From contig REEI01000081.1 of assembly GCA_007695145.1 (NCBI GenBank), positions 62,001 to 126,000 of the forward strand: a stretch of 64,000 bases of DNA. Direction: 5' to 3'. A model generated the notes under the pieces. That model made no database searches. It saw only the letters and a list, made by a program, of their open reading frames with translations, and was not told where the DNA came from. Made by a program: the position numbers and the translations under genes. Source of the stretch: Saprospirales bacterium (GTDB taxonomy: Bacteria > Bacteroidota > Bacteroidia > Chitinophagales > Saprospiraceae). Shown here piece by piece: positions 40,380 through 64,000 of this stretch (the first letter of the stretch is position 1; each line of letters starts with the position of its first letter).

Positions 40380-40409
40380 TATAAATTATTTTAAACCCTC
40401 AAATAAACA

Positions 40410-42176: not shown

Positions 42177-42187
42177 GACGTGTCGGT

Positions 42188-43567
42188 TTATTTGTGATTA
42201 TTAAAGGTAAATACTCGGAATTCGTTTGAGCTTATTTCAACTGCATCCCCCTCAGACATCTGTACCTCTTCTCCGCTGAACCAATTCACACCGGAACCTG
42301 GAGAATTCTGGAGAACAAACTGAACAGGGTTTTCATCTAAGTTCAAAAGCACCAACACCTCATTTTCACCGGCACTTCGGGAAAATGCAATCAGGTGGTC
42401 TACCTGATTGAAAAATTGGACTTCTCCACCATGGGGCTGATTCCAAAGCGCAGGGTTTTGCTTTTTCAGCCGAATCAGGTCGGTATAAAATTCCTGAAGA
42501 GAATATTCGCCCCATGGGATTTCAGATTTTTCAAAAAAGGGAAGTCTGAAGTCAAGTGCAGCTTCCTGACCGGTATATATCAAGGGCATCCCTGGAAAAG
42601 TAAAGCTAAAAACAGCCATCGCATCAGCATTCAGGCCCATGCGCTCCTCTATGGTTCCGTTCCAGCTATTTTCATCGTGATTATCAATAAATACCATCCT
42701 AATGGCATCCTCAGGAAACCGCTCTCGCTCCCTTTCCATGTACTGCATCAAATCACTTATGGAGGCTTCCCGCTGAGCCAATTGATTCATTATGTGATGC
42801 AATTCCCAGGCATAGGACATATCAAACCCCAGATCGTGGTGCTCAGGGTCTTCCCATTCTGCCAACATAAAAATAGGCTTTACTGACCTCAATTCTGCAA
42901 TGGCATCTTCCCAAAAATCATTGGGTACAAAACCAGCCACATCACATCTGTAACCATCGATATCAAACTCTTCCAACCAATACATCATCGCATCCTTCAT
43001 GGCTCTGCGCATTTCTTGATTATTGTAATCCAATTGGATGACATCTGTCCAGTCCGTATCGGGGGGAATAATAAAGGAGCCGTTCTGTCTCACATAAAAA
43101 TCTGGGTTTGTTTCGGTCCAAACAGCATCCCATGAAGTGTGATTGGGCACCCAATCCAGTATGACTATCATGCCCAGACCATGAGCTTTGCTGATCAACC
43201 TCCTTAAGTCATCTTCAGTTCCAAACTCAGGATTAACTCCTTTGTAGTCCCTAACTGAATAATAAGATCCGAGTTCACCCTTTCTCTCCTTTTCTCCAAT
43301 GGGATGTATGGGCATTAACCAAATGATATCGACCCCCATACCGGCAAGTCTGGGGAGGTGACTAGAAAACGCATTAAAGGTACCTTCAGAACTGAATTGG
43401 CGAATATTGACCTCGTAAATCACCCCGCTTTTAAGTATTTGTTGCATATCGACATTTTTTGCTGAAAAATCATCAGCTTCATGTTGATAAGAAGAACTGT
43501 CGCCACAGGAGACCATCATTAACAGGCAAAAGGCCGCAAACAAAAAAGATAAATATTTTTTCATCAT
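42188..43567 (-). CDS. GH13 alpha-amylase-family lipoprotein (short)
   Basis: 459 residues: a lipoprotein signal ending MMVSC, then a compact GH13 barrel. Catalytic residues: Asp in DGYRCDVAG, Glu in MLAEWEDP and Asp in FIDNHDE. There is no N-terminal carbohydrate-binding domain, in contrast to its operon neighbour. It is likely periplasm-facing or at the cell surface and cuts alpha-1,4-glucans; the precise specificity cannot be read. It ends 11 bases before the transporter gene. Confidence 0.9.
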   Translation of the reverse strand: MMKKYLSFLFAAFCLLMMVSCGDSSSYQHEADDFSAKNVDMQQILKSGVIYEVNIRQFSSEGTFNAFSSHLPRLAGMGVDIIWLMPIHPIGEKERKGELGSYYSVRDYKGVNPEFGTEDDLRRLISKAHGLGMIVILDWVPNHTSWDAVWTETNPDFYVRQNGSFIIPPDTDWTDVIQLDYNNQEMRRAMKDAMMYWLEEFDIDGYRCDVAGFVPNDFWEDAIAELRSVKPIFMLAEWEDPEHHDLGFDMSYAWELHHIMNQLAQREASISDLMQYMERERERFPEDAIRMVFIDNHDENSWNGTIEERMGLNADAMAVFSFTFPGMPLIYTGQEAALDFRLPFFEKSEIPWGEYSLQEFYTDLIRLKKQNPALWNQPHGGEVQFFNQVDHLIAFSRSAGENEVLVLLNLDENPVQFVLQNSPGSGVNWFSGEEVQMSEGDAVEISSNEFRVFTFNNHK

Positions 43568-43572
43568 AGAAT

Positions 43573-45945
43573 TTATTGTGGTTCACTTGAAATTATTTCA
43601 AAAGACCGGGGCGGCAAAAGCACTGACAAGGACTGATCCTTTAATTCATATTCCAGGTCGTTAAAAAAAATAGGGGTCCCGTATTTTTCCAACCAATCGA
43701 ATTCAATTTCCACCGGTTCATCACCTGAATTGAGGAGCATCCAGGATTGGTCAGAAAAATAGTTTCTGGAGGCCAGCATGGTTTCATCGCTGACTTCCAA
43801 TATGCGAAAGTCGCCATAAATGAGTTCCATTCTGTTATTTCTCAGATAGGCCAGACGAGAAACTGCACTCCTGAGGCTTTCCTGATCGGCATCCAGATTT
43901 TCAAACTGCATCATCCGTCTATTGTCGGGATCATTTCCACCGGGCATGCCGATCTCATCCCCATAGTACAATACCGGAATCCCCGGAATAAAAAAGTTGA
44001 TGGCATGAATCATTGCTACCCTGGAAAAACCTTCTTCGTTGGTCTTGTTAATATCGCGCGTCCAGCCCGCGAGTTTACTGTCCTCATCAAAAGCAACTTC
44101 ACCGGTGGCCAATGACATTATTCGCGGCTTGTCCTGATTGCCGCTCATATTCCCCATCAGGTGATTGGTGCCATAGTATTTTTGGCTCTCCAGCAGGCGT
44201 TCAGCCAGACGGCTCATAGGTATTTCAGGTCTAATCACTGAATTGATTACCGCATCGTAAACATTGAAATCAAATTGAGCATTCAACATTCCGGGACTGA
44301 TATAGGAACTGATCAATTCCGGGGAACCGTAAGTTTCTCCGATCTGCAAGTAATTTCTACCGGTAGTAGCAGATAGTTCATTGATTTTTTTTGTGAGCAT
44401 TCTCCAGAAGGAAAGTGGCACATGCTTGGTAGCATCGTGACGAAATCCATGAACTCCAAAGCGTTTCAACCAAAAAACGGCAGAATCAGACACCACTTCC
44501 GCCACTTCTGGATTTCTCAATTCCATGGTGGGCATAAAGGTGTCAAACCAGGTGGTAAGTCGATGATCATCCCACCTTTCAGTATTTAGACTGCCGTCCG
44601 GCAGATACAAATCGGTAAAATAATTTTCCCTATCCTTATTTTCCTGATAAAATGGGTGCTTTTCATGCAGGTGATTTGCAACCAGATCGAGCAGCAGGGT
44701 CATTTCATTCTGATTGATCAGGCTGACCATTCTCTCTAAATCATCCTCGGTCCCAAAGCGATCATCAATACGGGTAAATGAAATCGGCCAGTAACCGTGG
44801 TATCCTGAAAACATACTCTGCACTCCTCCTTTATCCCAAAAACCATAAGCCCCTTCAGGGTTCTGAATAATTGGGGAAAGCCAAATCGAGTTCATATTCA
44901 AATCTCTGAAATACCCTCTAATGATGGCCTGATTTACTCCTGCCAGATCACCCCCAAAGTAATTTGCTATGGGTAAAATGCGGTCATCCTCTACTATCCG
45001 GTCATTGTCCGGGTCTCCATTGATAAATCTGTCCACCATCAGAAAATACATGGTGGTCCGGTGCCAATCCTCAGGACTCAACACAAATGGATTCTCCACC
45101 CATGAACCATTTTTCACGGGGATAAGCAAATCCGGTCCTGCTCCTAATTCATTGGCGGCCTGAACCAGCATAAAGCCCTCTGAAAGTCGATATCTTTCAG
45201 GTAATTTACCAAGGTAATAGGTCCCATCCACATCAACCTCAAGTTCAATCGATTTTCCACCCATCATAGCAAATAGCTGATCGAATTCACCCTCAACCTT
45301 TATGAAAAAAGAGCCTGATTCATCTCTAAATGTATAAATATGGGGGAGCTCACTTTGAGGCGGAGACTCCAAACTCAACAAACTGTTATATCCTCCCATG
45401 CCATTGTCCAATTCTTTGGGATTCTCCGGGTCTAGTATTCTCTGTCCGTCCACCTCAAACTGATAGCCGTAAGTTCCAGGATTCACCCACAAAGCGGTTC
45501 TCCAGATTCCATTCTCAAGTTGCATAGTTCCTTCATCAGGATTCCAGGAGTTGATGTCCCCTACCACTGATACAACTGCAAACTCGGCATTTGGGTCAGC
45601 CAGTTCGAACTCAACCTTTTGCTTTTCAGACCTTTTGAGAAGAAAATCAATCCTATTGCCCTGGGTCTCGAGGGATAAAATTCCAAGTACCTTAGGAAAA
45701 GCGGACGCCTCAATCAAGATACTGTCTCCATCCATGAGAAAGCAATCCAGACCTTCAGTACAAGAAATTATTTTCACTTCACTGAAATCATTCAAATAAT
45801 CAGATAGCTGTAAAACAGTCTCTTTAGGCTGCAATTGGATACTCACAGGATGAGTGAAGGCAACTTCCTCTTCAAATTCCTCATCACTACAGGCAGCTAA
45901 AAGTAAAGAGGATAACAACAACATTGTGTAGTACTTAAAATTCAT
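43573..45945 (-). CDS. GH13 lipoprotein with N-terminal starch-binding-like domains
   Basis: 790 residues: lipoprotein signal ending LLAAC, a beta domain (about 25-110), a CBM48/E-set-like domain (about 115-195, SVVGDINSWNPDEG...YGYQFEVDG), a second beta domain, then the GH13 barrel from about residue 300. Catalytic Asp is in GFRHDATKH, Glu in QIGETYG and the third Asp in SGNQDKPR, which replaces the usual NHD form. A NQD-type third motif also occurs in other secreted Bacteroidota amylases. It is probably a surface amylase (SusG-like role), matching the glucan-binding proteins at 57.8-64 kb. It follows the GH65 gene by 12 bases. Confidence 0.9.
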   Translation of the reverse strand: MNFKYYTMLLLSSLLLAACSDEEFEEEVAFTHPVSIQLQPKETVLQLSDYLNDFSEVKIISCTEGLDCFLMDGDSILIEASAFPKVLGILSLETQGNRIDFLLKRSEKQKVEFELADPNAEFAVVSVVGDINSWNPDEGTMQLENGIWRTALWVNPGTYGYQFEVDGQRILDPENPKELDNGMGGYNSLLSLESPPQSELPHIYTFRDESGSFFIKVEGEFDQLFAMMGGKSIELEVDVDGTYYLGKLPERYRLSEGFMLVQAANELGAGPDLLIPVKNGSWVENPFVLSPEDWHRTTMYFLMVDRFINGDPDNDRIVEDDRILPIANYFGGDLAGVNQAIIRGYFRDLNMNSIWLSPIIQNPEGAYGFWDKGGVQSMFSGYHGYWPISFTRIDDRFGTEDDLERMVSLINQNEMTLLLDLVANHLHEKHPFYQENKDRENYFTDLYLPDGSLNTERWDDHRLTTWFDTFMPTMELRNPEVAEVVSDSAVFWLKRFGVHGFRHDATKHVPLSFWRMLTKKINELSATTGRNYLQIGETYGSPELISSYISPGMLNAQFDFNVYDAVINSVIRPEIPMSRLAERLLESQKYYGTNHLMGNMSGNQDKPRIMSLATGEVAFDEDSKLAGWTRDINKTNEEGFSRVAMIHAINFFIPGIPVLYYGDEIGMPGGNDPDNRRMMQFENLDADQESLRSAVSRLAYLRNNRMELIYGDFRILEVSDETMLASRNYFSDQSWMLLNSGDEPVEIEFDWLEKYGTPIFFNDLEYELKDQSLSVLLPPRSFEIISSEPQ

Positions 45946-45957
45946 CTTAAAATACTT

Positions 45958-48276
45958 TTATTTAACAGGGTATGACAGTTCAGCTTTTTCCCCTTTTTTC
46001 AACAAATATTCCCGGTCAAAAAGAACAACTTTTGCCTCTTCTTCTGCATTGTTACACACCTCAACAGTAGAGTGGTTGATGCTGACCTTAATATTTGCTC
46101 CTCGGAAAAAGACATTAAAATTGCATTCCTTCCAATGTTCCGGGATCAAAGGATCCAAATGAATGGCATCATTCTTAATCCTCATGCCACCAAAACCCTT
46201 CACCACTGACATCCAGGTGCCGGCCATGCTGGTGATATGCAGTCCTTCAGCTACCTCCTTATTGTAATCATCAAGATCCAGGCGACTGGTTCTCAGATAA
46301 AGTTCATATGCCTTTTCTAATTCTCCGATAGCAGCAGCCAGAATGACGTGAACACAGGGAGACAGAGAAGACTCGTGAACGGTTAATGGTTCGTAATAAT
46401 TGAAGTGATCCCTGATCTGTTCCTCGGAAAACTCATGCTCAAAAAAATAGATACCCTGGAGCACATCAGCTTGTTTGATATAGCAGGAGCGAAGAATTCT
46501 GTCCCAGGACCAATTTTGATTAATGGGCCGCTGATCAGCTGGTAATTCAGCTGCGGGGATGATTTCTTTATCGAGAAAACCCTCTTGCTGAAGGTAGATA
46601 TTCAGTTCCTCGTTTCGAGGATAATACATATTTTTACTGATCTCATCCCAACGGGCAATTTCAGCCTCCTCATCAAAGGCCGTTTTTTCAAGGATTCGAT
46701 CATAGTCGTCTTTTTTTCGACTCTTTACATACTCCAATGCCTCTATGGTATATCTGAAACACCAAATTGCAGCATAATTGGTGTACCAGTTATTGTTGAC
46801 ATTGTTCTCATATTCATTTGGGCCAGTCACTCCCAGCATAACATACTGCTTTTTTGCCTCTGAAAAATTGACCCGCTGCGCCCAAAATCTACTGATGGCA
46901 ATGAGCACCTCCAGGCCGTATTCGTGCAAATAGGAATAATCACCCGTGTACCGAATGTAGTCAAAAATAGCATAGGCAATGGCGGCATTTCTGTGAATTT
47001 CTTCAAAGGTAATTTCCCACTCATTGTGACACTCCTCACCGTTCATCGTCACCATGGGATAAAGTGCAGCTCCCTTTGAAAAACCTAATTTTTTAGCATT
47101 CTCAATGGCCTTTTCAAGGTGGTTGTACCTGTACTCCAAAAGATTTCTCGCGACTTGTTGTTCAGCACTGCTCAGGTAAAAAGGCAGACAATAAGCCTCT
47201 GTATCCCAATAGGTAGATCCCCCGTACTTCTCCCCGGTAAATCCCTTTGGTCCAATATTCAGCCTGGGATCATCCCCGGTATAGGTTTGGTAGAGATGAA
47301 AAATATTGAACCGAATCCCCTGCTGGGCTGCGAGATCTCCCTCAATCACTATATCGTGTCGGTCCCACTTTTCTCTCCACAGGGTTGTGTGTTCATCCAA
47401 AATTTTTTGAAATCCGAGGTCCCTTGCCTCCTTCAATTGTTTTCGGCTAATTCCCTCAAAGTCATCAACAGGATAGTAGAAGTTAGATACAACTGAGGCA
47501 AATTTTTCAATTCTCAACACCTGACCCTCAGAAACCGGGATGTTTAATTGGTGAGCTACATACTTTTTTCTGCCTGATGGCAAAAAAGTGGCTTTCAACT
47601 CTTGTCCATCTTTAAAAATCCGATATCCCATGGTTGCTCTTACCCTAAAATCCAATTTTTTAGTCCGCGCCTCAACAAAGGGGAAATCAACATCCTGATC
47701 TTTTGAAGTCTCCTCCCAGAACTTCTCCTCGTAATTGGAATCTTCATTCACCACATCAAAATCCAGATAAGGGGTCAGACTGATCTCTCCACTAAAATTC
47801 AAAGCCTCTATACTATAGTCTATGAGTCCCATATCCAACCTTTTGATGGAGTAAAACCTGCGAGCTACCACCTTGATCTTTTCACCTCCAGCCAATTTGG
47901 CGGTAAATTCCCTGGTGAGCAGGCTCTTCTCCATATCCAGCTCACGCACAAAATCGTATATCTTACAGGTATTCAGGTCCAGTTCAACCCCATTGATGGC
48001 AACCCGGATGCCGATCCAATTTACCGAATTGATGACCTTGGCGTAATATTCCGGATAGCCGTTTTTCCACCAACCGACCCTCGTTTTATCCGGAAAGTAG
48101 ACCCCCGCTATATAGCTTCCCTGAAGGCTGTCTCCACTAAAGTGTTCTTCAAAATTGGCCCTCTGCCCCATTCTACCATTGCCGATACTGCAAACAGACT
48201 CGGCTGCTCTGTTAAAGTCAGCATTATAGCCTCTTTCAATCACTTTCCATTCGTGTAGTTCAAAATAGTTTTTCAT
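45958..48276 (-). CDS. GH65 glycoside phosphorylase, maltose phosphorylase type
   Basis: A 772-residue cytoplasmic enzyme without signal peptide. GH65 has an N-terminal beta-sandwich (about 1-270), a helical linker, an (alpha/alpha)6 barrel and a C-terminal beta domain. The catalytic acid is the Glu in GVTGPNEYENN; the WDTEAYCLPF and MNGEECHNEW segments are also family markers. Maltose phosphorylase splits maltose with phosphate to glucose and beta-glucose 1-phosphate. The adjacent beta-phosphoglucomutase makes maltose the best guess over kojibiose or nigerose, but trehalose-type phosphorylases share the fold. Confidence 0.92.
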   Translation of the reverse strand: MKNYFELHEWKVIERGYNADFNRAAESVCSIGNGRMGQRANFEEHFSGDSLQGSYIAGVYFPDKTRVGWWKNGYPEYYAKVINSVNWIGIRVAINGVELDLNTCKIYDFVRELDMEKSLLTREFTAKLAGGEKIKVVARRFYSIKRLDMGLIDYSIEALNFSGEISLTPYLDFDVVNEDSNYEEKFWEETSKDQDVDFPFVEARTKKLDFRVRATMGYRIFKDGQELKATFLPSGRKKYVAHQLNIPVSEGQVLRIEKFASVVSNFYYPVDDFEGISRKQLKEARDLGFQKILDEHTTLWREKWDRHDIVIEGDLAAQQGIRFNIFHLYQTYTGDDPRLNIGPKGFTGEKYGGSTYWDTEAYCLPFYLSSAEQQVARNLLEYRYNHLEKAIENAKKLGFSKGAALYPMVTMNGEECHNEWEITFEEIHRNAAIAYAIFDYIRYTGDYSYLHEYGLEVLIAISRFWAQRVNFSEAKKQYVMLGVTGPNEYENNVNNNWYTNYAAIWCFRYTIEALEYVKSRKKDDYDRILEKTAFDEEAEIARWDEISKNMYYPRNEELNIYLQQEGFLDKEIIPAAELPADQRPINQNWSWDRILRSCYIKQADVLQGIYFFEHEFSEEQIRDHFNYYEPLTVHESSLSPCVHVILAAAIGELEKAYELYLRTSRLDLDDYNKEVAEGLHITSMAGTWMSVVKGFGGMRIKNDAIHLDPLIPEHWKECNFNVFFRGANIKVSINHSTVEVCNNAEEEAKVVLFDREYLLKKGEKAELSYPVK

Positions 48277-48348
48277 CTGTTGTAATTCAAAGTTTTTATA
48301 CCAAATTATCTATTTAGTTCGAGAAAACTTAAATTCAGGCATCAAATT

Positions 48349-49017
48349 TCACAAAGACGGCAATCCATCCAATAAATTGCAAAGGCCAAAACCCTCCCAG
48401 GATCTGAGCGTAAAATGGGCGAGCTCACTCAGTTCAGGATCATCTCCAAAGCCTACTGCCAGAAAACCACCCTTAAGGGCTGCAGACAAACCTGCAGTTG
48501 AGTCTTCAAACACCACGGTTTCGGATCTTCTCACATTCATCAAATCGGCGGCCTTAATGAACAATTCGGGATCAGGCTTTCCTCTTTTTATGTCGTTTCC
48601 ATCTACTACCCATTTAAACCGCTCTGCCAACCCAATTTTGTTGAGGATTTTCCGTGCATTTTTGCTACCCGACCCAAGACTGTACTTGATACCCTCATTT
48701 TCTAGCTCATCCAGAAATTCTGTCACGCCTTTAAAAAGATCACCTTCAGACACCTTTTCAATTTCCTCGAGATACCACTGATTCTTCCTATCCATCATTC
48801 TCCTCCTCTCTTCCAAACCCATTTGAAGTCCGGCCCATTCCAATATCAATTTAAGAGAGCCCCCCCTGCTAACACCTTTGAGCAATTTATTTTTTTCCTC
48901 GGTCAACTCATAGCCAATCTCTCTTCCCAGTCTTCTCCATGAAATAAAATGATAATGTGCAGTATCCGTGAGAACGCCGTCTAGATCGAAAATACAGGCA
49001 GCCAATTTTCGCTTCAT
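48349..49017 (-). CDS. pgmB: beta-phosphoglucomutase
   Basis: A 222-residue HAD-superfamily enzyme that turns beta-glucose 1-phosphate into glucose 6-phosphate, the step after maltose phosphorolysis. The nucleophile D11 and acid/base D13 are in FDLDGVLTDTAHYH, the cap domain follows, and the later motifs are GSGSKNARKIL and KPDPELF with VFEDSTAGLSAA. The ATG at 49017 is preferred over the TTG two codons upstream. It is the first gene of the six-gene operon, and the 19-bp palindrome at 49060-49078 lies 42 bases upstream. Confidence 0.94.
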   Translation of the reverse strand: MKRKLAACIFDLDGVLTDTAHYHFISWRRLGREIGYELTEEKNKLLKGVSRGGSLKLILEWAGLQMGLEERRRMMDRKNQWYLEEIEKVSEGDLFKGVTEFLDELENEGIKYSLGSGSKNARKILNKIGLAERFKWVVDGNDIKRGKPDPELFIKAADLMNVRRSETVVFEDSTAGLSAALKGGFLAVGFGDDPELSELAHFTLRSWEGFGLCNLLDGLPSL

Positions 49018-49045
49018 GGTCAAGTGATTAGATGAAATATTGAGG

Positions 49046-54410: not shown

Positions 54411-55415
54411 TCACAATCTCACTGCATACTCCATTAATTCTACGGACCTTTGGGCGTAGGCAAACTCATTGTCATACCAGGCCATGACACGGTAGAGGTC
54501 GCCCACTTTAGAAGTCAGTAGCGAGTCAAATACTGAGGAATGAGAATTACCGATGATGTCTGTAGAGACTAGTGGTTCGTCTATGTATTGAAGTATACCA
54601 TTGAGTGAGCCATCAGCTGCTTCTTTCATTGCACCATTAATAGCTTCAACAGAGGCTTCTTTGTCTAACATAAAGGTAAACTCGGTGGCAGATCCGCATA
54701 CAACCGGGACTCTCATTGCCGACCCCGACAGTTTCCCCTTAAGAGAAGGCAGCACAATCTCGGTGGCCTTGGTGGCACCAGTCGTTGTGGGAATAATGGA
54801 GACCGCTGCAGACCTGGCCCTTCTCAAGTCCTTATGAGGAGCATCCATCAACCGCTGATCAGCGGTATAGGCATGAATAGTGGTCATGAAACCCTGTTTA
54901 ATTCCAAAAGTTTCTTCAAGCACCTTTGCAACCGGAGCGAGACAATTGGTTGTACAGGAAGCATTTGAAATAATGGTATCTTCAGGATGCAGGGTATTCT
55001 CATTCACTCCCATTACAATAGTAGGTATATCCCCTCCTTTTCCGGGAGCTGATAGAACCACTTTTTTAGCACCTGCCTGACGGTGTTTGGAAGCAAGTTC
55101 CTTAGTGAGAAAAATTCCAGTGCTCTCAAGGACAACATCGATATTCAAATCTGTCCAGGGCAGTTGTCTGGGGTCTTTTTCGTTATAGCATTTGATCTTG
55201 ATGCGATCATCTATTACCATGTCAGCACCATCTGCTTCTACCTTGTAAGGAAAATGCCCGTGAGCAGAATCGTATTTCAAAAGGTGAACAAGTGTTTTTA
55301 CATCAGTTAGATCATTGATCGCAATGCATTCCATAGCATCGTTCAACATCATCGCTTTGAGGCTCAATCTACCAATTCTTCCGAATCCATTAATAGCTAC
55401 TCTTATCTTTGTCAT
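54411..55415 (-). CDS. gap: glyceraldehyde-3-phosphate dehydrogenase
   Basis: A 334-residue enzyme that converts glyceraldehyde 3-phosphate, NAD and phosphate to 1,3-bisphosphoglycerate. The Rossmann motif is INGFGRIGR, Asp in AINDLTD favours NAD over NADP, the catalytic Cys is in SNASCTTNC, and the His is in HAYTADQ. It follows pfkA by 24 bases, so both glycolytic genes probably share one transcript whose promoter region carries the 19-bp palindrome. Confidence 0.97.
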   Translation of the reverse strand: MTKIRVAINGFGRIGRLSLKAMMLNDAMECIAINDLTDVKTLVHLLKYDSAHGHFPYKVEADGADMVIDDRIKIKCYNEKDPRQLPWTDLNIDVVLESTGIFLTKELASKHRQAGAKKVVLSAPGKGGDIPTIVMGVNENTLHPEDTIISNASCTTNCLAPVAKVLEETFGIKQGFMTTIHAYTADQRLMDAPHKDLRRARSAAVSIIPTTTGATKATEIVLPSLKGKLSGSAMRVPVVCGSATEFTFMLDKEASVEAINGAMKEAADGSLNGILQYIDEPLVSTDIIGNSHSSVFDSLLTSKVGDLYRVMAWYDNEFAYAQRSVELMEYAVRL

Positions 55416-55439
55416 ATTCCAATTTTTTACTAAAGTTTA

Positions 55440-56420
55440 TTAAATAGAAAGTATCTGAGCAATTTTAACCAAATTTTCGTTCAGTTGTTTTTTCTGAGTG
55501 TAACTAGTTTCAAGCGGTTCTTCATGAATTTTTCCACATTGATAAGCAGTCATGAATCCGGAATTCCCATTCAGCAAGCCCTCAACTGCTCCCACACCCA
55601 TTTCACTTGCGATTACCCGATCAAAACATGTAGGGTCTCCTCCCCTTTGGAGATGGCCCAGAATCGTGACCTTGGTCTCGTAATCATTGTATTTTTCGCG
55701 TACAGATTTTGCCAGTTCGTAGGCTCCTCCATTCTCATTTCCTTCAGCAACCACCACGATACTGGAAGATTTTTTGTTGCGATATCCCTTCCTCAGTAAA
55801 GCCACCAGCTCTTCCACTGAGGTCTTTCGCTCGGGCATCATAATACAGATCGCACCACTTGCTATTCCAGATCTCAGAGCAATAAACCCTGTGTCGCGGC
55901 CCATTACTTCGACAAAAAACAGCCGGTTGTGAGATAGTGCCGTATCACGGATTTTATCTATGCAACTTACGACTACGTTTGAGGCTGTATCATAGCCAAT
56001 TGAATAATCTGTACCCGCTATATCATTGTCGATGGTTGCAGGAATTCCTGCAACCTGCAAGCCAAATTCTTTACTAAATATATGCGCCCCTGCAAACGAG
56101 CCATCCCCTCCAATGACTACCAGACCATCAATACCTCTTGATTTTAGCTCAGAATATGCTTTTTTCCTACCTTCTTCAGTCCTAAACTCAGGGCTTCTCG
56201 AACTTCGCAAAACAGTACCTCCATTGCCCAGAATGTTATTTACCGATCGGACACTTAGCTGACGGATATTCCCTTCGATCAACCCCTTATATCCCTCATA
56301 AATCCCAAAAACCTCAGTATTGTAGTAAACAGAAGCACGGACCACTGCTCTTACTGCTGCATTCATCCCGGGCGCATCTCCACCGGAGGTCAAAAGCGCA
56401 ATTTTCTTTAAGTCATTCAT
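55440..56420 (-). CDS. pfkA: ATP-dependent 6-phosphofructokinase
   Basis: A 326-residue enzyme that phosphorylates fructose 6-phosphate, the committed step of glycolysis. The N-terminal GGDAPGMNAA, the GGDGSFAGA motif (Gly rather than the Asp of pyrophosphate enzymes) and the catalytic PATIDNDIAGTD are intact, so ATP is the expected donor. Length is that of the short bacterial form. It opens a pfkA-gap operon and is divergent from the Nudix-type regulator, with the perfect palindrome 45 bases before its ATG. Confidence 0.96.
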   Translation of the reverse strand: MNDLKKIALLTSGGDAPGMNAAVRAVVRASVYYNTEVFGIYEGYKGLIEGNIRQLSVRSVNNILGNGGTVLRSSRSPEFRTEEGRKKAYSELKSRGIDGLVVIGGDGSFAGAHIFSKEFGLQVAGIPATIDNDIAGTDYSIGYDTASNVVVSCIDKIRDTALSHNRLFFVEVMGRDTGFIALRSGIASGAICIMMPERKTSVEELVALLRKGYRNKKSSSIVVVAEGNENGGAYELAKSVREKYNDYETKVTILGHLQRGGDPTCFDRVIASEMGVGAVEGLLNGNSGFMTAYQCGKIHEEPLETSYTQKKQLNENLVKIAQILSI

Positions 56421-56464
56421 AATTGTAATTATAAGGCAAAGAAACTAATTTTCAAAGGATTTCT

Positions 56465-56483
56465 TAGTGTATTTGGTACACTA
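56465..56483. promoter_or_regulatory. perfect operator-like palindrome between pfkA and the Nudix-type regulator
   Basis: TAGTGTA-TTTGG-TACACTA: both 7-base arms are perfectly complementary around a 5-base spacer. It is 45 bases before the pfkA ATG and 165 bases before the regulator ATG, suited to controlling pfkA-gap and perhaps the regulator gene itself. Confidence 0.75.
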
Positions 56484-56647
56484 TCTAAAAAAATAATATC
56501 TTTATATTCATTTTTCAAAAAGCTATAAAAAATTTAGGTAAATAAAGTTGTAACTGACCTATAAAACGATGCAATTATTTTGAAAGACCCTAATACCAAA
56601 AATTATCCGTTCAATTAAAATGAGTCAGCTAAATTGGTACAAAATTA

Positions 56648-57376
56648 ATGATCGAAAGAGAAAATATTAACTTTCAACTCCGCGAGATAGACGAGCACCT
56701 GAAAGCTGCCATATCGGTTGATTGCGTCATTTTTGGATACGATCAATCGGAACTAAAAGTACTTACTTTGGAATGCAATATGGCCCCCTATGTTGGGATG
56801 CCCTCGCTAATTGGAGATTTGGTCAATGAAGATGAAAATCTCGACCAGGCAGCCACCAGGATACTTTACGAAAGAACGGGAATATCAGATATATTTCTTG
56901 AGCAGGTAAAAGCCTTTGGAGAAACTGACCGCCATCCACTGGAAAGAGTAGTCACTATAGCTTATTACGCATTGATTAAGGTCGATGAGTTTAAAAATGA
57001 CAATGGGGCTTTGAGACAACACCAAGCCAAATGGTCTCCCCTCAATCAATTGGAAGAAATGGCTTTTGATCACCGCCTTATTCTTGAGAGTTCTCTTCAC
57101 CTCCTAAGAAAAAGGTTGATCGAATACCCTCTCTGGATGAAGCTTCTTCCAAAGTATTTTTCTCTCCCGGATTTGCAAAATCTATTCGAGGCCATTCTTG
57201 GCACTACCCTGGATAAGAGGAATTTCAGAAAGAAAATTTCCAATCTCGAATTGGTTCGCGAAGTTGGAAAAATGCAGAAAGATGTACCCCATCGACCTGC
57301 CAAGCTCTATGCTGTCAACGAGAAAAAGCTTAAAAAGGATTTTTCTTTCTTACTGCAAAACCCTTTTATCAACTAA
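56648..57376 (+). CDS. Nudix-related transcriptional regulator (NrtR/AraR family)
   Basis: A 242-residue regulator: an N-terminal Nudix-fold ligand domain (about 15-150) and a C-terminal winged helix (about 165-240) with the family core LPDLQNLFEAILGTTLDKRNFRKKI and RPAKLYAV. The Nudix box is degenerate (GDLVNEDENL...ATRILYERTGI lacks the RE and EE glutamates), which fits a sensor that binds a sugar or nucleotide without cutting it. NrtR relatives regulate NAD genes, and AraR of Bacteroides regulates arabinose genes; here the context (pfkA-gap, maltose operon, susCD) points to a glucose/maltose signal. The three 19-bp palindromes are its likely sites. The ATG at 56648 gives the standard length. 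Confidence 0.88.
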   Translation: MIERENINFQLREIDEHLKAAISVDCVIFGYDQSELKVLTLECNMAPYVGMPSLIGDLVNEDENLDQAATRILYERTGISDIFLEQVKAFGETDRHPLERVVTIAYYALIKVDEFKNDNGALRQHQAKWSPLNQLEEMAFDHRLILESSLHLLRKRLIEYPLWMKLLPKYFSLPDLQNLFEAILGTTLDKRNFRKKISNLELVREVGKMQKDVPHRPAKLYAVNEKKLKKDFSFLLQNPFIN

Positions 57377-57771: not shown

Positions 57772-59589
57772 TTATCTACTGATAGAAAGTCTCTTTCCTA
57801 TAAAAAAGCTTCCATCCGTTATATTTACAATGTACATTCCGGAAGTCAGGTCCGAAACATTTAAAGCTATTTGACCGGCATCTGCAAAGACACTCGATAA
57901 AACTTCTTTACCTGTCATATCAAAAATTCGAACGACCAATTTACCACCTGGCTCAATATCTCTCAGATCAATGTGAACCTCATTCCCGGCGGGATTGGGG
58001 TAGAGAGAAACCTGTTCCGGTGAAATATAAATTTCACCCGTGGAGGTTGAAGGACTGAATACATATTCGCCTGTAGCAGCATTAAAAAACACATCATATA
58101 AACCTGCAGTAGGCTCAATATTTGGTCCATCTTGCGTACCAACACCCTCAGGAAAGTCAGCAGCACCCCAATTAACTGTCCAGGCAGTATCAGCTCTGAA
58201 CTTTATACCTCCATCGTCATCTGGGTCAAAGTCAAATAATTGAACACCCGCAGTATTCCACAAATTCCCGTCGTTGGGATCTTTGTCCATAAACCAATCA
58301 ACTGCACCCCCGTCATTCTCATCGGGCCATTCGCCAAAAGGACCTGACCTACCGACAATGCTGATGGAATTGAATTCAATGATTTCATCAAAGTGATATT
58401 CTCCTGTGGTAGAGTTAAAAGTAATTCTGTACTCCCCGCCAACTACGGGAATATTTACACCATCTTGAGTAGCAACACCTGTGGGAAAATCCGGTCCACC
58501 CCAGTTGATGGTCCATTCGTTATTGGCTCTGAATTTCATCTCTCCATCATTCAATACTACTCGAAGCCGCCAAACACTGCCATCCTCCGTGTCCTTTTCC
58601 ATATCAGTATCATCGTCCCAGCCTCCAGGTGTCGCGTCCCCAATTATACTCACCACATCAAAATCCTCAATTATCAAAAAACTGTACTCCAAGGTAGCAA
58701 CATTAAAAGTAACCAAATAGTCTCCCTCTTGATCCACTACAATATCATCACCATTGGGTACTGCAATGCCAGTTGGGAATGTCTCGCCACCCCAATTGAT
58801 AGCCCAGTCGTTTTCTGCCCTAAACTTCAATTCACCTTCCACCAAAAACACAGTGGTCCTCCAAACATCGGGATTGCCCGCATCTCTCTGTAAATGAGTG
58901 TCCTCATCCCATCCACCAGGAGTGGCACTTCCAATTATACTCAAACTATCGAATCCTACCACTTCATCAAAAAGGTATTCACCCGAAGTAGTGTCAAAGG
59001 TAATGCGATAAGTTCCAGCCATCTCAATTGGAATATTCGGTCCATCCTGAACAGCAATACCCGCCGGAAACTCATCACTGCCCCAATTTACAGTCCAGTC
59101 ACCATCTTTTCTGAATTTCGCATCACCAGCATTTAGAGGCATGGTGCCAAAAAACAGCCCGGGATTGTCCCTGTCCGGAAAAAGGAATACATCCCGATCC
59201 CATTCAAATCGAGTAGCATCCCCAATTATACCAATGGTCCCGGCATAGTCAAAAAAGTAATCCCCGGTAGCTGAATTAAAAGTAATTTCATAATTTCCAC
59301 CAATAATCTGGAAATTTGGACCATCTTGCTCTCCAGCTCCAATAGGGAGGTCAATCCCTCCCCAATTCACTGCCCAATCGTCGTCGGCGCGAAATTTAAG
59401 CTCTCCATCCACCAATTCGACGGAAATCGTCCATAAATCAGGATCTTCAACATCCTGAACCATTGGAGTGCTGGCATCCCAGCCCTCCGGAGTGGCAGTT
59501 CCTATAATTCCAACTGTGGAAAACTGCCCGTGCACTAGCCCGGTAAGGACCATGCAAACTGTCAAGAAAAGTAGTTTTAGTTTCATCAT
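57772..59589 (-). CDS. secreted five-repeat SusE/F-like starch-binding protein with T9SS sorting domain
   Basis: 605 residues. A signal peptide ends near VHGQ (residue 22). Five tandem beta-sandwich repeats follow at about 25-115, 118-209, 216-305, 313-403 and 410-511. Each shows the pattern IIG-A-P-GGW, then KFRA-(x)2-W-(x)-VNWGG and a final T-GEY-F strand, as in SusE/SusF starch-binding domains. The last 80 residues (523-605, VSLYPNPAGNEVHIDL...MYIVNI) are a type A T9SS sorting domain. The protein is thus exported and fixed to the cell surface by T9SS instead of by a lipid anchor. It is divergent from susC and shares the palindrome at 59620-59638. Role inferred: capture of alpha-glucan at the surface. 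Confidence 0.88.
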   Translation of the reverse strand: MMKLKLLFLTVCMVLTGLVHGQFSTVGIIGTATPEGWDASTPMVQDVEDPDLWTISVELVDGELKFRADDDWAVNWGGIDLPIGAGEQDGPNFQIIGGNYEITFNSATGDYFFDYAGTIGIIGDATRFEWDRDVFLFPDRDNPGLFFGTMPLNAGDAKFRKDGDWTVNWGSDEFPAGIAVQDGPNIPIEMAGTYRITFDTTSGEYLFDEVVGFDSLSIIGSATPGGWDEDTHLQRDAGNPDVWRTTVFLVEGELKFRAENDWAINWGGETFPTGIAVPNGDDIVVDQEGDYLVTFNVATLEYSFLIIEDFDVVSIIGDATPGGWDDDTDMEKDTEDGSVWRLRVVLNDGEMKFRANNEWTINWGGPDFPTGVATQDGVNIPVVGGEYRITFNSTTGEYHFDEIIEFNSISIVGRSGPFGEWPDENDGGAVDWFMDKDPNDGNLWNTAGVQLFDFDPDDDGGIKFRADTAWTVNWGAADFPEGVGTQDGPNIEPTAGLYDVFFNAATGEYVFSPSTSTGEIYISPEQVSLYPNPAGNEVHIDLRDIEPGGKLVVRIFDMTGKEVLSSVFADAGQIALNVSDLTSGMYIVNITDGSFFIGKRLSISR

Positions 59590-59619: not shown

Positions 59620-59638
59620 TAGTGTACTTTATACACAA
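59620..59638. promoter_or_regulatory. operator-like palindrome between the starch-binding protein and susC
   Basis: TAGTGTA-CTTTA-TACACAA: same 7-5-7 layout as the other two sites with one mismatch in the right arm. Its right edge is 18 bases before the susC -7 box, overlapping the -33 region; its left edge is 5 bases from the possible box of the divergent gene. One protein bound here could therefore control both. Confidence 0.68.
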
Positions 59639-59656
59639 AGTTAATTTAAAAATAAC

Positions 59657-59664
59657 TAACTTTG
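59657..59664 (+). promoter_or_regulatory. TAnnTTTG -7 box of susC
   Basis: TAACTTTG gives a predicted start near 59671, inside the open frame that begins with a GTG at 59669; the real start is therefore the ATG at 59702. Confidence 0.65.
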
Positions 59665-59701
59665 GCAAGTGATTGTGAAATTTTCTAAAAAAATCCTAAA
59701 C

Positions 59702-62695
59702 ATGGGTACTTTTACTATTGATTTTAAGCTAGTTGCGCTCCTGGGCATCCTCTTACTTTCCGGTAGCATACTCTGGGGACAAAGAACTATTACCGGGAAA
59801 GTGGCTGAAGCAGAGACGGGACTTGGCCTTATTGGGGCGACCGTTCAAGACCCTGAAAACCCCTCGGTAGGAACAGTTACAGATTTCGAGGGAAACTATT
59901 CAATAAACATATCTGAGGCTACCACTCATTTGCGATACAGTTATGTGGGTTTCCAATCGGTCCTGGTTGAAATTCGCGATCAGTCTGAGATCAATGTTCA
60001 ACTGTCAGCTGGCTCTGTGCTGGGTGAAGTAGTTATCATTGGCTATGGAACTGTAGAGCGCGAAGACGTGACCGGCTCTATTCAAACAATCACATCCCGT
60101 GAATTTAATCAGGGAGCAATAACCAGTCCTCAAGAGCTGTTGTCCGGAAAAGTACCGGGAGTAACAGTTGTCACCGGCGGAGGTGGTCCCGATGAGGGAG
60201 CACAAATAAGGATCAGGGGTTTGTCCTCTTTGGATGCGAGCAATGATCCGCTGATTGTAGTAGACGGAATTCCTCTGGCGTCTGGAGGCATTTCAGGAAA
60301 CAGAAATCCGCTGAACATCATCAACCCCAATGACATTGAGAGTATTACCGTATTAAAAGATGCTTCTGCAACTGCCATTTATGGTAGCCGTGGTTCAGCG
60401 GGAGTAATTCTCATCACTACGAAGAGAGGGTCGATGGGTAGTCGCCTTCAGGTCACTTATGATGGCAACATTTCCGTGGGCACAGCAATAAACAAAGTGG
60501 ACGTATTGAGTGCAGAGGAATTCAGAGCTGCGATGCTGGAAAAAGAACCAGATAGGATTGAATTTATGGGCGATGCCAATGTGGACTGGCAGGATGAAAT
60601 TTACCGAAATGCTGTGGGAACCGATCACACCATAGGATTAAGTGGTAGCATACGGGAGACTATGCCCTTTAGGCTTTCTCTCGGTTACACCAACAAGGAT
60701 GGCATTCTGCGTACTGATAATTTCCAAAGATATACTGCTGGCCTTAATTTCAGTCCACATTTTTTTGACAGTCGCCTTCAGTTTAATATCGGATTAAGGG
60801 GCATGCTCAATAAAAACCAGTTTGCCGAGAGGGGTGCCATTGGTGCGGCAGTCAGGTACGACCCTACTCAACCCATCCTTGATGAAGAAAGTCAATTCAG
60901 CGGTTATAGTGTGTGGACTTTGCCCAATGGAAACCCCAATTTACTCGCTCCTTTCAATCCGCTTTCACTCCTGGACAGGTCATTGCGACAGGACAATTCA
61001 GAGGTAAATCGCTATATTGTTAATGCCTCGGTTGATTACCGCTTTGAATTCCTTCCAGCTCTACGTGCCAATCTCAACCTCGGCTATGATTATTCAAAGG
61101 GAAGTGGTGGTGTAGATATCCTGGGAGGCAATATTGTGGCCTACAGCTTCAACCCCAATACGGAGGGTGGTCTTATGAGTACTTATGAGGAGGTTCGAAA
61201 AAATGAACTTTTAGAATTTTATCTCAATTTCAGAGAAAACTACGGGCAACACACCATCGACCTAATGGGAGGATATTCATGGCAACACTTTTTTGATGAG
61301 AATTCATTTTTCAGAACAGATGCAGCCATGACGCCTTCCGAAACCCAGCAGCAGGACAACATCGCACGTGAATTGTATTTACTTTCTATGTTTTCGCGGA
61401 TTAATTACAGCTTTAGGGATCGCTATCTGCTCACCTTTACCCTCAGGGCTGATGCCACCTCCCGCTTTGCCTCTGAAAATCGTTGGGGATATTTCCCTGC
61501 GGCAGCTGCAGCAGTTAAAATATTTGAAACCGAAAACACCTGGTTCAACAATCTAAAGTTGCGTGCCGGATGGGGAATAACCGGTCAGCAGGAAATTGGG
61601 GGATATTATATTTATCAGGCAGTGTATGAGGAGAGTCTCGAAAATGCACGCTATCGACTGGGTGATCAGTTTTATACCACCATTCGCCCCAATGGATATG
61701 ACAGAAACATCAAGTGGGAGGAAACTACAACTACCAATATTGGAATAGACTTTTCAATACTCAAAGACCGCATTGAAGGCTCTTTAGACATTTATCGAAG
61801 GGACACCAGAGATCTTCTCGGCTTTGTAGATGTGCCCGCAGGCACCAATCTGACCAATAGAATTTTCACAAATGTGGGTAATATGGTTTCTGAGGGAGTA
61901 GAACTCTCACTGGTTACCACTCCGGTAATTCGCAACAGACTGAGATGGGACCTCAGCACAAATTTCAATTACAACACCAATGAAATCAGTCGTTTGACTG
62001 CCACCAATGACCCGGATTTCCCCGGTGTGGAAGTGGGAGGAATTGCCGGTGGAGTCGGATCAAATATCCAAATACATTCAGTTGGTCACGAACCTTTTTC
62101 TTTCTTTGTATTTGAGCAACTGTACGATGAGGAAGGAAATTTATTAGAAGGTCAGTTTGCAGATAGAAACGGAGATGGAATGGTCAATGATGACGACAAA
62201 TACAGATTCCGAAGCCCCGCTCCTCGCATTACCTTTGGCCTAACAAGCAATCTAAGCCTGGGCAACTTCGACTTTTCATTCGCCGGGCGAGCTCACTTTG
62301 GCAATTACGTTTATAACAATGTGGCTACCGATATGGGCAATTTTAATGCACTTTATCACCCCACTAACTATTTGTCAAACATTCACCGGTCAGCTATAGA
62401 CAACAATATTCAAAGTCAGAACTCAGTCCTTTTTAGTGATCATTTTGTAACCGATGCATCATTTTTCCGAATGGATCACATTACCCTGGCTTACACATTT
62501 AATCTGTCTCAACTTTCAGGTCCCGGATTGATCCAAACCATAGGGCTGAATTCACTGAGATTGTATGCCACTGTTCAAAATCCATTTGTAATTACCGATT
62601 ACGATGGGCTTGATCCGGAGATACCCAATGGAATAGACAATAATTTTTACCCGCGACCACGGACTGTATTATTTGGAATATCAGCTACCTTTTAA
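59702..62695 (+). CDS. susC: SusC-family TonB-dependent outer-membrane transporter
   Basis: 997 residues: a signal peptide ending SILWGQ, a CarboxypepD_reg-like domain (about 28-110, TGKVAEAETGLGLIGATVQD), the plug domain with the SusC hallmark LKDASATAIYGSRGSAGVIL near residue 215, and a 22-strand barrel closing with a terminal aromatic strand. SusC forms a gated channel that pulls oligosaccharides bound by SusD into the periplasm with energy from TonB. Its substrate is inferred from context to be an alpha-glucan (starch, glycogen or maltodextrin). The ATG at 59702 is chosen because the promoter box at 59657 excludes the earlier GTG. Confidence 0.93.
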   Translation: MGTFTIDFKLVALLGILLLSGSILWGQRTITGKVAEAETGLGLIGATVQDPENPSVGTVTDFEGNYSINISEATTHLRYSYVGFQSVLVEIRDQSEINVQLSAGSVLGEVVIIGYGTVEREDVTGSIQTITSREFNQGAITSPQELLSGKVPGVTVVTGGGGPDEGAQIRIRGLSSLDASNDPLIVVDGIPLASGGISGNRNPLNIINPNDIESITVLKDASATAIYGSRGSAGVILITTKRGSMGSRLQVTYDGNISVGTAINKVDVLSAEEFRAAMLEKEPDRIEFMGDANVDWQDEIYRNAVGTDHTIGLSGSIRETMPFRLSLGYTNKDGILRTDNFQRYTAGLNFSPHFFDSRLQFNIGLRGMLNKNQFAERGAIGAAVRYDPTQPILDEESQFSGYSVWTLPNGNPNLLAPFNPLSLLDRSLRQDNSEVNRYIVNASVDYRFEFLPALRANLNLGYDYSKGSGGVDILGGNIVAYSFNPNTEGGLMSTYEEVRKNELLEFYLNFRENYGQHTIDLMGGYSWQHFFDENSFFRTDAAMTPSETQQQDNIARELYLLSMFSRINYSFRDRYLLTFTLRADATSRFASENRWGYFPAAAAAVKIFETENTWFNNLKLRAGWGITGQQEIGGYYIYQAVYEESLENARYRLGDQFYTTIRPNGYDRNIKWEETTTTNIGIDFSILKDRIEGSLDIYRRDTRDLLGFVDVPAGTNLTNRIFTNVGNMVSEGVELSLVTTPVIRNRLRWDLSTNFNYNTNEISRLTATNDPDFPGVEVGGIAGGVGSNIQIHSVGHEPFSFFVFEQLYDEEGNLLEGQFADRNGDGMVNDDDKYRFRSPAPRITFGLTSNLSLGNFDFSFAGRAHFGNYVYNNVATDMGNFNALYHPTNYLSNIHRSAIDNNIQSQNSVLFSDHFVTDASFFRMDHITLAYTFNLSQLSGPGLIQTIGLNSLRLYATVQNPFVITDYDGLDPEIPNGIDNNFYPRPRTVLFGISATF

Positions 62696-62712: not shown

Positions 62713-64000
62713 ATGAAACTATATAAATTTATCATCGCAATAATTCTCTTAAGTCTCACGGCAACCTCATGTTTTCAAGATCTGGACACAGTTCCTTTAG
62801 ATCCGACCCAAGTGACATCAGGTACCGTTTTTGACAATCCTGAGGCCTACAGGGGCGTCCTGGCCAAATTATATGCGGGGCTTGCTGTTTCCGGACAGGA
62901 AGGTCCGGCTGGGAGACCGGATATTTCCGGAATTGACGAAGGATTTGGTCAATATCTCCGAGGATTTTGGTACCATCAACAATTGACCACGGATGAAGCT
63001 ATTATCGGCTGGAATGATCAGACCATCTTTGATTTCCACAATCAGACCTGGACAGCTAGCGACGGATTTACCTTTGCTTTCTACAGTAGAATTTTTTATC
63101 AAATAGCACTTTGTAACGAATTCCTCAGAGAAACCACGAATTCCAAGCTCAATGAAAGAGGGGTTGGGGCCGCCCTGAGAGAAGAAATTCAGGGCTACAG
63201 AGCGGAAGCGAGATTCCTGAGGGCTCTCAGTTATTGGCACGCCCTGGACATCTTTAGAAATGTACCCTTTGTCACAGAAAATGATGTGGTAGGTGCTTTT
63301 TTTCCTGAGCAAATCTCTACGCAAGATTTATTTGAATACATAGAAAGTGAACTTCTGGAGGTACAAGATTTGCTTCCTCCGCCCAGAACCAATGAATATG
63401 CCAGGGCTGACCAGGCTGCGGCCTGGATGTTATTGGCTAAACTCTACCTGAATGCAGAGACTTACATCGGGCAGCCCAAATATGCTGAATGTTTTGAGTA
63501 CTGTCAGAGGATCATCAATGCAGGTTATGAGTTAGAACCTGAATATGAGCATCTTTTCCTCACAGACAATGATCAGTCCAGAGAGATCATTTTTCCCATC
63601 GCCTTTAACGGAGATAATACCAGAACCTGGGGTGGAATGACCTTTATTATCAATGCCGCAATTGGTGGAAATATGAATCCATCAGCACTCGGTATGGGAG
63701 GTGGATGGGGAGGAACCCGCGCAACCCGGCAGTTTGTAGAAAAGTTTCCCGAGGGATCTGATGGGACTGTTGTGTCCAGAAACATGGGGCAAACCGTTGC
63801 CTATCCCAAATTATATGTACCTGGTACCCATCAGGGCAATGATCCAACGGATACCAGAAATTCTCTTTCTTCTCCGATGAGTAACAATATCTTTGAGGGG
63901 CATAAATACTTTCCCGAAGCAAATACAGAAATAAGATTTACGAGGATTCCTTCCTCTACTGCACCTATTTACGGTGACAATACAGGAGGCGGCACCCTCC
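62713..64000 (+). CDS. susD: SusD/RagB-family nutrient-binding lipoprotein (partial, 3' end off the window)
   Basis: Open from the ATG at 62713 to the right edge: 429 codons. A lipoprotein signal ends LTATSC and the mature protein begins with the family-typical FQDLDTVPLDPTQ. The helical TPR-like motif region shows EEIQGYRAEARFLRALSYWHALDIF, RADQAAAWMLLAKLYLNAE and later REIIFPIAF. SusD caps the SusC barrel from outside and binds glycans. It starts 17 bases after susC and is co-transcribed. The C-terminal part, including most of the glycan-binding surface, is not visible. Confidence 0.93.
   Translation, partial: MKLYKFIIAIILLSLTATSCFQDLDTVPLDPTQVTSGTVFDNPEAYRGVLAKLYAGLAVSGQEGPAGRPDISGIDEGFGQYLRGFWYHQQLTTDEAIIGWNDQTIFDFHNQTWTASDGFTFAFYSRIFYQIALCNEFLRETTNSKLNERGVGAALREEIQGYRAEARFLRALSYWHALDIFRNVPFVTENDVVGAFFPEQISTQDLFEYIESELLEVQDLLPPPRTNEYARADQAAAWMLLAKLYLNAETYIGQPKYAECFEYCQRIINAGYELEPEYEHLFLTDNDQSREIIFPIAFNGDNTRTWGGMTFIINAAIGGNMNPSALGMGGGWGGTRATRQFVEKFPEGSDGTVVSRNMGQTVAYPKLYVPGTHQGNDPTDTRNSLSSPMSNNIFEGHKYFPEANTEIRFTRIPSSTAPIYGDNTGGGTL

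Follow-up and report, generated by a model that had tools for sequence, protein, structure and literature searches.

In our study, an open reading frame (ORF) of 605 amino acids, open throughout, was found at 57772–59589 on the minus strand of a 64,000-nucleotide stretch of DNA from a Saprospirales bacterium (GenBank assembly GCA_007695145.1, contig REEI01000081.1, positions 62,001 to 126,000). The whole of this stretch is called the window below. The encoded protein contained five repeats of the SusE/F type and a C-terminal sorting domain of the type IX secretion system (T9SS), and its gene lay beside susC and susD. The parts of the protein, in window positions, were as follows.

57772–59589, minus strand, coding sequence of the T9SS-type protein with five SusE/F-type domains, 605 amino acids
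59527–59589, minus strand, type I signal peptide, residues 1–21, with Q22 after the predicted cleavage site and no lipobox
59239–59517, minus strand, SusE/F-type repeat 1, residues 25–117
58945–59238, minus strand, SusE/F-type repeat 2, residues 118–215
58654–58944, minus strand, SusE/F-type repeat 3, residues 216–312, containing the best PF16411 stretch
58366–58653, minus strand, SusE/F-type repeat 4, residues 313–408
58051–58365, minus strand, SusE/F-type repeat 5, residues 409–513, lengthened by two insertions that add about 15 residues
57775–58011, minus strand, T9SS type A C-terminal sorting domain, residues 527–605 (PF18962, TIGR04183 and fold match to solved domains)

The length of the repeats ranged between about 93 and 105 amino acids. 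Each of the five (residues 25–513) contained the KFR motif, at residues 65, 158, 255, 352 and 463, followed by the NWG motif at residues 75, 168, 265, 362 and 473, respectively. The family PF16411 (SusF_SusE) matched the protein in four stretches at E=9.4e-30, with 104.5 bits against a curated cut-off of 27.5. The tail was matched by PF18962 (Por_Secre_tail) at E=3.6e-13 and by TIGR04183 (T9SS type A) at E=6.6e-12 (45.2 bits, cut-off 23). No match to PF14292, the immunoglobulin-like (Ig) domain of SusE, was found in the protein in the domain-profile scan. The identity among the five repeats was 33–56%. An origin of the repeats by chance was rejected, as the profile and Foldseek matches were too strong, and a recent tandem duplication was rejected because of this identity range and of positions conserved across species. 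Thus, the observation of the initial annotation, that five SusE/F-like repeats stand on one chain ending in a T9SS sorting domain and divergent from susCD, was confirmed.

The comparison of the predicted structure with SusE and SusF, which the initial annotation had proposed as a check, showed a similar fold. In the Foldseek search of the AlphaFold model against the PDB, SusF (4fe9) ranked first at E=2.1e-10, followed by the X25-2 domain of Sca5 at rank 3 and by SusE with alpha-cyclodextrin and maltoheptaose at ranks 10 and 11; SusF, Sca5 and SusE were all found at E<0.001. SusF was also the top match in VIA-align (Z 12.9, 262 residues), where the root-mean-square deviation of 10.6 Å was large because several domains were superposed at once. 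The VIA-align list for the 605-amino acid protein consisted mostly of matches to C-terminal domains (CTDs). Residues 517–605, approximately, were superposed on the solved T9SS CTD of mirolase (8qb1; Z 11.6, 1.9 Å) and on 8glk_D (Z 11.3, 2.0 Å), and a T9SS CTD was among the nearest solved chains by sequence profile (4e-7).

When genome contigs were scanned, 33 loci were obtained (loci are given by L numbers below), the named relatives being mostly Saprospiraceae or Saprospirales; among them, L026 belongs to the culturable Portibacter marinus; L014, L018 and L027, labelled Bacteroidetes or Bacteroidota only, were counted among the Saprospirales-type relatives. The protein alignment comprised 22 proteins, namely that of the window and those of 21 of the 33 loci. 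L021 and L028, with the 5' end cut, and L029–L038, which were short, partial or tail-only, were omitted, and in L008, L018 and L024 among the 22 rows contig ends removed all or part of the tail. Five repeats were present in 21 of the 22 proteins and six in L022. In the 111 repeats of these proteins, W12 (97%), K40 (96%), F41 (100%), R42 (97%), W47 (97%) and W51 (98%) were conserved. Among the 21 five-repeat proteins, each repeat was compared with its best partner in another protein; in 1389 of the 2100 comparisons both held equal positions, where 420 were expected at random. The array is therefore old, since repeat positions were conserved between species.

Of 395 genomes sampled across the phylum, 47 contained a match at E<=1e-20, and model positions 1–594 were matched in only three, all of the own family. 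Among 398 genomes of the family, 109 had a match at E<=1e-30, and in 65, counted from the matches listed, one match spanned most of the protein, from model position 24 or lower to 510 or higher. Four of the 65 (G693, G702, G748 and G774) ended at 510–533, short of the tail, and genomes with split or shorter matches, such as G683, G714, G550, G628 and G739, were placed outside the 65. The five-repeat T9SS layout, which the initial annotation had described for a single protein, is thus frequent within a clade, the own family being where the five-module form is concentrated. T9SS-tailed proteins with between one and four repeat matches were also found in other families; L045 was above the PF16411 cut-off and L044 and L052 were below it. 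The combination of repeats and T9SS tail is therefore not unique to the clade.

Related frames of other composition were also observed. A frame of 908 amino acids (L081:1129–3852) contained eight repeats and a T9SS tail. A lipoprotein-like frame of the same family (L043:457–2337) contained three to four repeats and was devoid of the tail, which may represent an alternative anchoring of similar modules. Frames of about 1090–1120 amino acids in L082, L083, L084 and L088 had six repeat matches each, and the two scanned, L082 and L084, also contained matches like carbohydrate-binding module (CBM) family 9 and CBM48/AMPK1-CBM, and a T9SS tail; these frames may be T9SS glucan binders or enzymes of a second kind. 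In L089 (1289–3508), a single such repeat was located N-terminally on an alpha-amylase of glycoside hydrolase family 13 (GH13) with a PKD domain.

The Q22 residue after the signal peptide was invariant in the 22 aligned proteins, and a lipobox-like motif was absent from the first 35 residues of all 22, whereas the same kind of scan found one in 18 of 21 rows of the partner SusDs. In Bacteroidetes, substrates of signal peptidase I carry a glutamine after the cleavage site, the Q-rule (PMC5837995; this and the other PMC sources are cited from excerpts of their text). A hidden lipobox at C12 was rejected, as LTVC is off-pattern and the cysteine at position 12 was missing in 19 of the 22 proteins. 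The own genome (3.7 Mb in 144 contigs, 99% complete) contained PorU (1190 bits) and SprA_N (480 bits), the two T9SS core genes to which the search was limited, so that the core-gene check proposed in the initial annotation was positive for both. Export of the 605-amino acid protein by the T9SS is well supported as a prediction from these signals and genes, and its anchoring on the cell surface is likely.

The gene of the T9SS protein was divergent from susC in 19 of the 22 aligned loci (18 of the 21 relatives and the window), which extends the divergence from susCD already described in the initial annotation. The genes across the shared region were as follows.

59702–62695, plus strand, susC, with a likely ATG start (TIGR04056, 709 bits)
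62713–64000, plus strand, with 896 bases beyond the window (L039:214–2400), susD, 728 amino acids, starch-type SusD core
63751–64000, plus strand, part of the SusD insertion (residues about 347–552) inside the window, from the alignment and the 111-repeat profile

The longest susC ORF began with GTG at 59669, 79 bp from the T9SS protein gene, and the ATG at 59702 is the likelier start. The gene following susD in the stretch read was sucC-like and not SusE. The encoded SusD matched the SusD of Bacteroides thetaiotaomicron (BtSusD) at E=3.2e-89, and VIA-align superposed 441 residues (Z 36.1, 2.9 Å). The pairs D73/D75, R81/R83, W98/W100, Y296/W306 and W320/W332 of BtSusD and the own SusD were aligned, and we take D73, R81, W98, Y296 and W320 of BtSusD to have ligand roles.

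The SusD contained about 205 extra residues. In an alignment of the own SusD, 16 relatives and four outgroups (L029, L030, L031 and L034), this insertion was present in 17 of 17 and in none of the outgroups; the alignment did not include the partial SusD of L024, those of L032 and L033 (523 and 501 amino acids) or the second one of L029. The five-repeat profile of the T9SS protein matched the insertion in 12 of the 17 (L010, L012, L015, L016, L017, L019, L020, L022, L023, L025, L026 and L027), most strongly in L027 with 69 bits, and had no match in the own SusD at E<=1. The profile of 111 repeats added L013 and, weakly (E=8e-4 among 533 ORFs), the own SusD, giving 14 of 17. The insertions of L006, L009 and L011 had no match to the 111-repeat profile at E<=0.01 and still aligned across the insertion. 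The SusE/F identity of the insertion is read from profile matches of whole SusDs, and in the SusD model, with a predicted local distance difference test score (pLDDT) of 74.1, 130 of 728 residues were below 50. A second SusE/F-like module may occupy the first half of the insertion, as read from weak matches in some rows and from the alignment. In the phylum sample, SusD of this type was found at E<=1e-100 in 92 of the 395 genomes, and frames of more than 700 amino acids were found only in three genomes of the own family; of the other frames, eight were of 639–670 amino acids (all family f24), five of 623–637 (family f5) and the rest of 520–609. As repeat-profile matches occurred within the SusD frames of L047 and L048 (f5) and L057 (f24), shorter SusD insertions are not confined to the own family. 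The SusD insertion with its putative SusE/F-like module or modules, which lies mostly outside the window, was overlooked in the initial annotation. The more surprising feature is that many related species carry SusE/F-type modules in two places, on the T9SS-type array and, as judged by profile, in the SusD insertion.

The region between the divergent genes and the neighbouring regulator locus contained the following features.

59622–59636, between the divergent genes, no strand, palindrome GTGTACTTTATACAC, candidate operator
59636–59643, minus strand, TAACTTTG, candidate -7 box of the Bacteroidota type for the T9SS protein gene
59657–59664, plus strand, TAACTTTG, candidate -7 box of susC
56648–57376, plus strand, NUDIX-winged-helix regulator with AraR as nearest solved relative (PF21906, PF19368, PF00293)
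56467–56481, between the phosphofructokinase-like and regulator genes, no strand, second palindrome GTGTATTTGGTACAC
54411–56420, minus strand, phosphofructokinase-like and glyceraldehyde-3-phosphate dehydrogenase (GAPDH)-like genes, named by our reading of the ORFs, downstream of the second palindrome, with orthologs in L006 and L007

The two TAACTTTG boxes stood back to back between the T9SS protein gene and susC and were called candidates from the Bacteroidota -7 box consensus, TAnnTTTG. Two of the five GTGTA-N5-TACAC sites of the genome were in the window, 3.2 kb apart, flanking the gene of the AraR-like regulator. An exact GTGTM-N5-KACAC stood between the divergent genes in the window and in 8 of the 18 divergent relatives, and a site with one mismatch in four more, that of L026 overlapping the longest susC ORF; because the motif was chosen on the window, its test lies in the relatives alone, of which the close ones do not count as independent cases. 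In L006 and L007, the palindrome was present in both regions, and on the regulator side the spacers were changed and the half-sites unchanged. The upstream stretch read for the regulator ortholog contained the variant GTGTT-N5-AACAC in L026 and no palindrome in L015. The initial annotation had proposed a control site shared with susCD; the shared intergenic region with a recurring palindrome was borne out, and the control site itself stays at the level of a candidate.

The regulator matched AraR (PDB 5bs6) at E=1.1e-52. In Bacteroides, arabinose genes and SusC-SusD operons are under the control of the AraR branch of the NrtR regulators (PMC4666351, excerpt). We infer that the AraR-like regulator acts through the GTGTA-N5-TACAC sites and that its effector is a glucose-related sugar. 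The regulator gene was divergent from the phosphofructokinase-like and GAPDH-like genes here and also in L006 and L007, and this arrangement (54411–57376) suggests a control of upper glycolysis by sugar.

A classical SusE after susD was rejected for the own genome: the sucC-like gene was found there, PF14292 had no match in the genome at E<=0.1, and PF16411 had none above the cut-off beyond the 605-amino acid ORF. Among the 65 genomes whose match was near full length, PF14292 was found at E<=0.001 in 8 (57 without), in seven above the cut-off. For comparison, 47 genomes of the family were picked, not at random, from the listed family rows; 12 contained a PF14292 match, 10 had one above the cut-off and 6 had a SusE-sized frame. 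The T9SS protein is thus usually found without a classical SusE and can coexist with one, and SusE is in any case rare in this family.

A maltodextrin-type cluster was located 8.7 kb away from the T9SS protein gene.

38397–49023, minus strand, three GH13-like ORFs, major facilitator superfamily transporter, GH65-like and beta-phosphoglucomutase-like genes

Only the ORF at 43573–45945 was assigned by PF00128, the other names being read from translations. This GH13 enzyme contained a lipobox-like N-terminus and an AMPK1-CBM-like match before the catalytic domain.

Taken together, we propose that the 605-amino acid protein is a multivalent alpha-glucan binder that is exported by the T9SS, held on the surface near SusCD and controlled together with it, and we give this reading a probability of roughly 0.75. 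The five SusE/F-type (X25-like) beta-sandwich modules would form the binder. The protein would be exported by the Sec route and then cross the outer membrane by the T9SS through its type A C-terminal domain, after which the PorU attachment step most likely keeps the array on the cell surface. There the array would keep starch or maltodextrin chains close to the SusCD importer, whose genes lie on the other side of the common promoter region. Most likely, alpha-glucan is captured outside the cell by the array and imported by SusCD. Further SusE/F-like module(s) would be housed in the insertion of the partner SusD, and a lipoprotein SusE was not found in the own genome. The AraR-like NUDIX regulator next door probably represses both directions from the GTGTA-N5-TACAC operator, and it would link the starch system to the glycolysis genes. 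The initial annotation was partly supported in its interpretation: architecture and route were right, its binding and anchoring were inferences, and its scope was too narrow.

Several observations weigh against this reading. The AlphaFold model, built from the 22 aligned proteins, had a pLDDT of 85.8 and a predicted template modelling score (pTM) of 0.37, and therefore its single domains can be trusted and their arrangement cannot. Foldseek ranks 2 and 4–9 were occupied by BT4663, a sensor protein that is unrelated; its TM-scores were about 0.10, and we took these matches as chance similarity of beta-strands. GTGTA-N5-TACAC was found at five places in the genome and a control pattern at three, so the palindrome is hardly enriched genome-wide, and GTGTM-N5-KACAC was absent, one mismatch being allowed, in 6 of the 18 divergent relatives. 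In 3 of the 22 loci (L012, L022 and L027) the T9SS protein gene was on the susCD strand. No GH13 gene was found directly beside susCD here, the nearest solved relative by sequence was the dextran-binding surface glycan-binding protein (SGBP) BT3088 (E=9.2e-9), and FjDusE, a SusF_SusE homolog, binds dextran tightly and starch weakly in the excerpt of PMC10316084. The own genome contained 129 Por_Secre_tail matches (E<=0.01), and the tail is therefore not specific to glycan capture. Surface retention is uncertain, because T9SS cargo can be freed after cleavage of its CTD. SusE-sized PF14292 frames (355–397 amino acids) were present in 6 of the 65 genomes (59 without), in five of the six on the same contig near the T9SS protein gene; as 6 of 65 stands beside 6 of 47 in the comparison set, a replacement of SusE is not demonstrated.

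The attachment step bears on the first alternative, in which the protein is exported by the T9SS and then freed by PorU cleavage of the tail, as a soluble multivalent starch binder and not a surface receptor; such a form would coat granules or cross-link cells and starch. In Porphyromonas gingivalis, according to the excerpt of PMC11285876, PorU either frees the cargo after removal of the CTD or joins anionic lipopolysaccharide (LPS) to it, and only the subset of the cargo to which anionic LPS is joined remains at the surface. The release of PorU-processed cargo and the missing lipobox in 22 of 22 proteins both favour a soluble protein, but the pairing with susCD (19 of 22 divergent, 3 of 22 on the same strand) and the lack of another SusE in the own genome fit a role at the importer, and we consider a soluble binder rather unlikely. 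The same PorU step touches the "lipid-independent" placement proposed in the initial annotation: the absence of a lipobox agreed with it, but any attachment could use the lipid of LPS, since PorU can join anionic LPS to cargo, which makes that part of the claim questionable.

A second alternative is that the ligand is a non-starch alpha-glucan (dextran, pullulan or glycogen) or another glycan. The sequence match to BT3088 and the dextran preference of FjDusE (PMC10316084, excerpt) speak for it. However, the core and aromatic residues of SusD follow starch SusD, maltodextrin-type genes occur in the same window, the GH13 amylase of L089 carries a related repeat on its chain, and SusF was first by fold; a ligand other than starch therefore seems to us improbable. 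Binding of malto-oligosaccharides is described for the X25 modules of SusE, of SusF and of the Sca5/Sas20 pair, although single modules of that pair did not bind (PMC9112005, excerpt). That the protein is a T9SS adhesin or matrix protein with borrowed SusE/F-like folds and lost glucan binding, for which the varying repeat number (5, 6 in L022, 8 in L081) and the presence of T9SS tails on many adhesins were counted, is highly implausible against three tryptophans and a lysine kept in 96–98% of 111 repeats and the conserved array positions (1389 of 2100 at the same position, 420 expected).

Returning to the surface-held alpha-glucan binder, a wider picture can be drawn of a rebuilt Sus system without lipoprotein SusE/F, in which modules would sit in the SusD lid and five or more on a T9SS array under one AraR-like regulator. 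We hold this picture tentatively, at somewhat less than even odds, a degree lowered by the missing profile matches of some insertions and by the 6 of 65 against 6 of 47 genomes with SusE-sized frames. If it were true, polysaccharide capture would be shared by a device attached to the importer and an array of long reach from another export route, the modules of the SusD lid would move with its opening, and the regulator would also control upper glycolysis. Because the T9SS protein can be deleted independently of the SusD insertion, and the insertion independently of the protein, the locus offers a natural comparison for the role of SusE/F in binding at the importer or in distant capture.

SusE/F-type proteins are usually regarded as lipoproteins of the SusCD complex, and the known T9SS cargo consists mostly of enzymes and adhesins. 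In the literature searched, whose coverage was partial, no T9SS-exported SusE/F-type protein and no SusE/F modules in SusD were found described, which is weak support for novelty. In the portions available, PMC12016534 named type IX secretion and SusE in its references only, PMC12611786 treated SusE of the SusCDE complex as a surface lipoprotein, and PMC9304909 mentioned susC/D and T9SS in Saprospiraceae.

The protein resembled SusF and SusE of B. thetaiotaomicron (PDB 4fe9, 4fch and 4fem) in the PF16411 fold and family, the linkage to susCD and the predicted glucan binding. Unlike these, it was devoid of the PF14292 Ig domain, contained a type I signal peptide and T9SS tail in place of the lipobox, and was encoded divergently from susC in most loci seen, whereas SusE/F follow susD on the same strand. 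It contained five modules, where SusF has three and SusE two (PMC9112005, excerpt). It was also like FjDusE of Flavobacterium johnsoniae and BT3088 (SGBPdex, 9sji) in being a multi-module protein of the SusF_SusE type, the likeness to BT3088 being a sequence match only; FjDusE itself is described in the excerpt with a type II signal peptide, an Ig domain, three modules and a preference for dextran (PMC10316084). With Sca5/Sas20 of Ruminococcus bromii (PDB 7rpy) it shared tandem X25 modules in a multidomain extracellular protein; these differ in their dockerin/cohesin or sortase attachment and in two X25 modules forming one joint site (PMC9112005, excerpt). Like T9SS type A cargo (TIGR04183), it had a type I signal peptide and a C-terminal Ig-like sorting domain, with PorU and SprA in the genome. 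The partner SusD was like starch SusD (BtSusD 3ck7–3ckc; Bacteroides vulgatus 3jys) in core fold and aromatic residues, and differed from both by its extra residues. In this comparison, the T9SS-route version found in many related species, together with the putative modules of SusD, would be a Sus system in which the binding modules were re-housed and the importer was kept.

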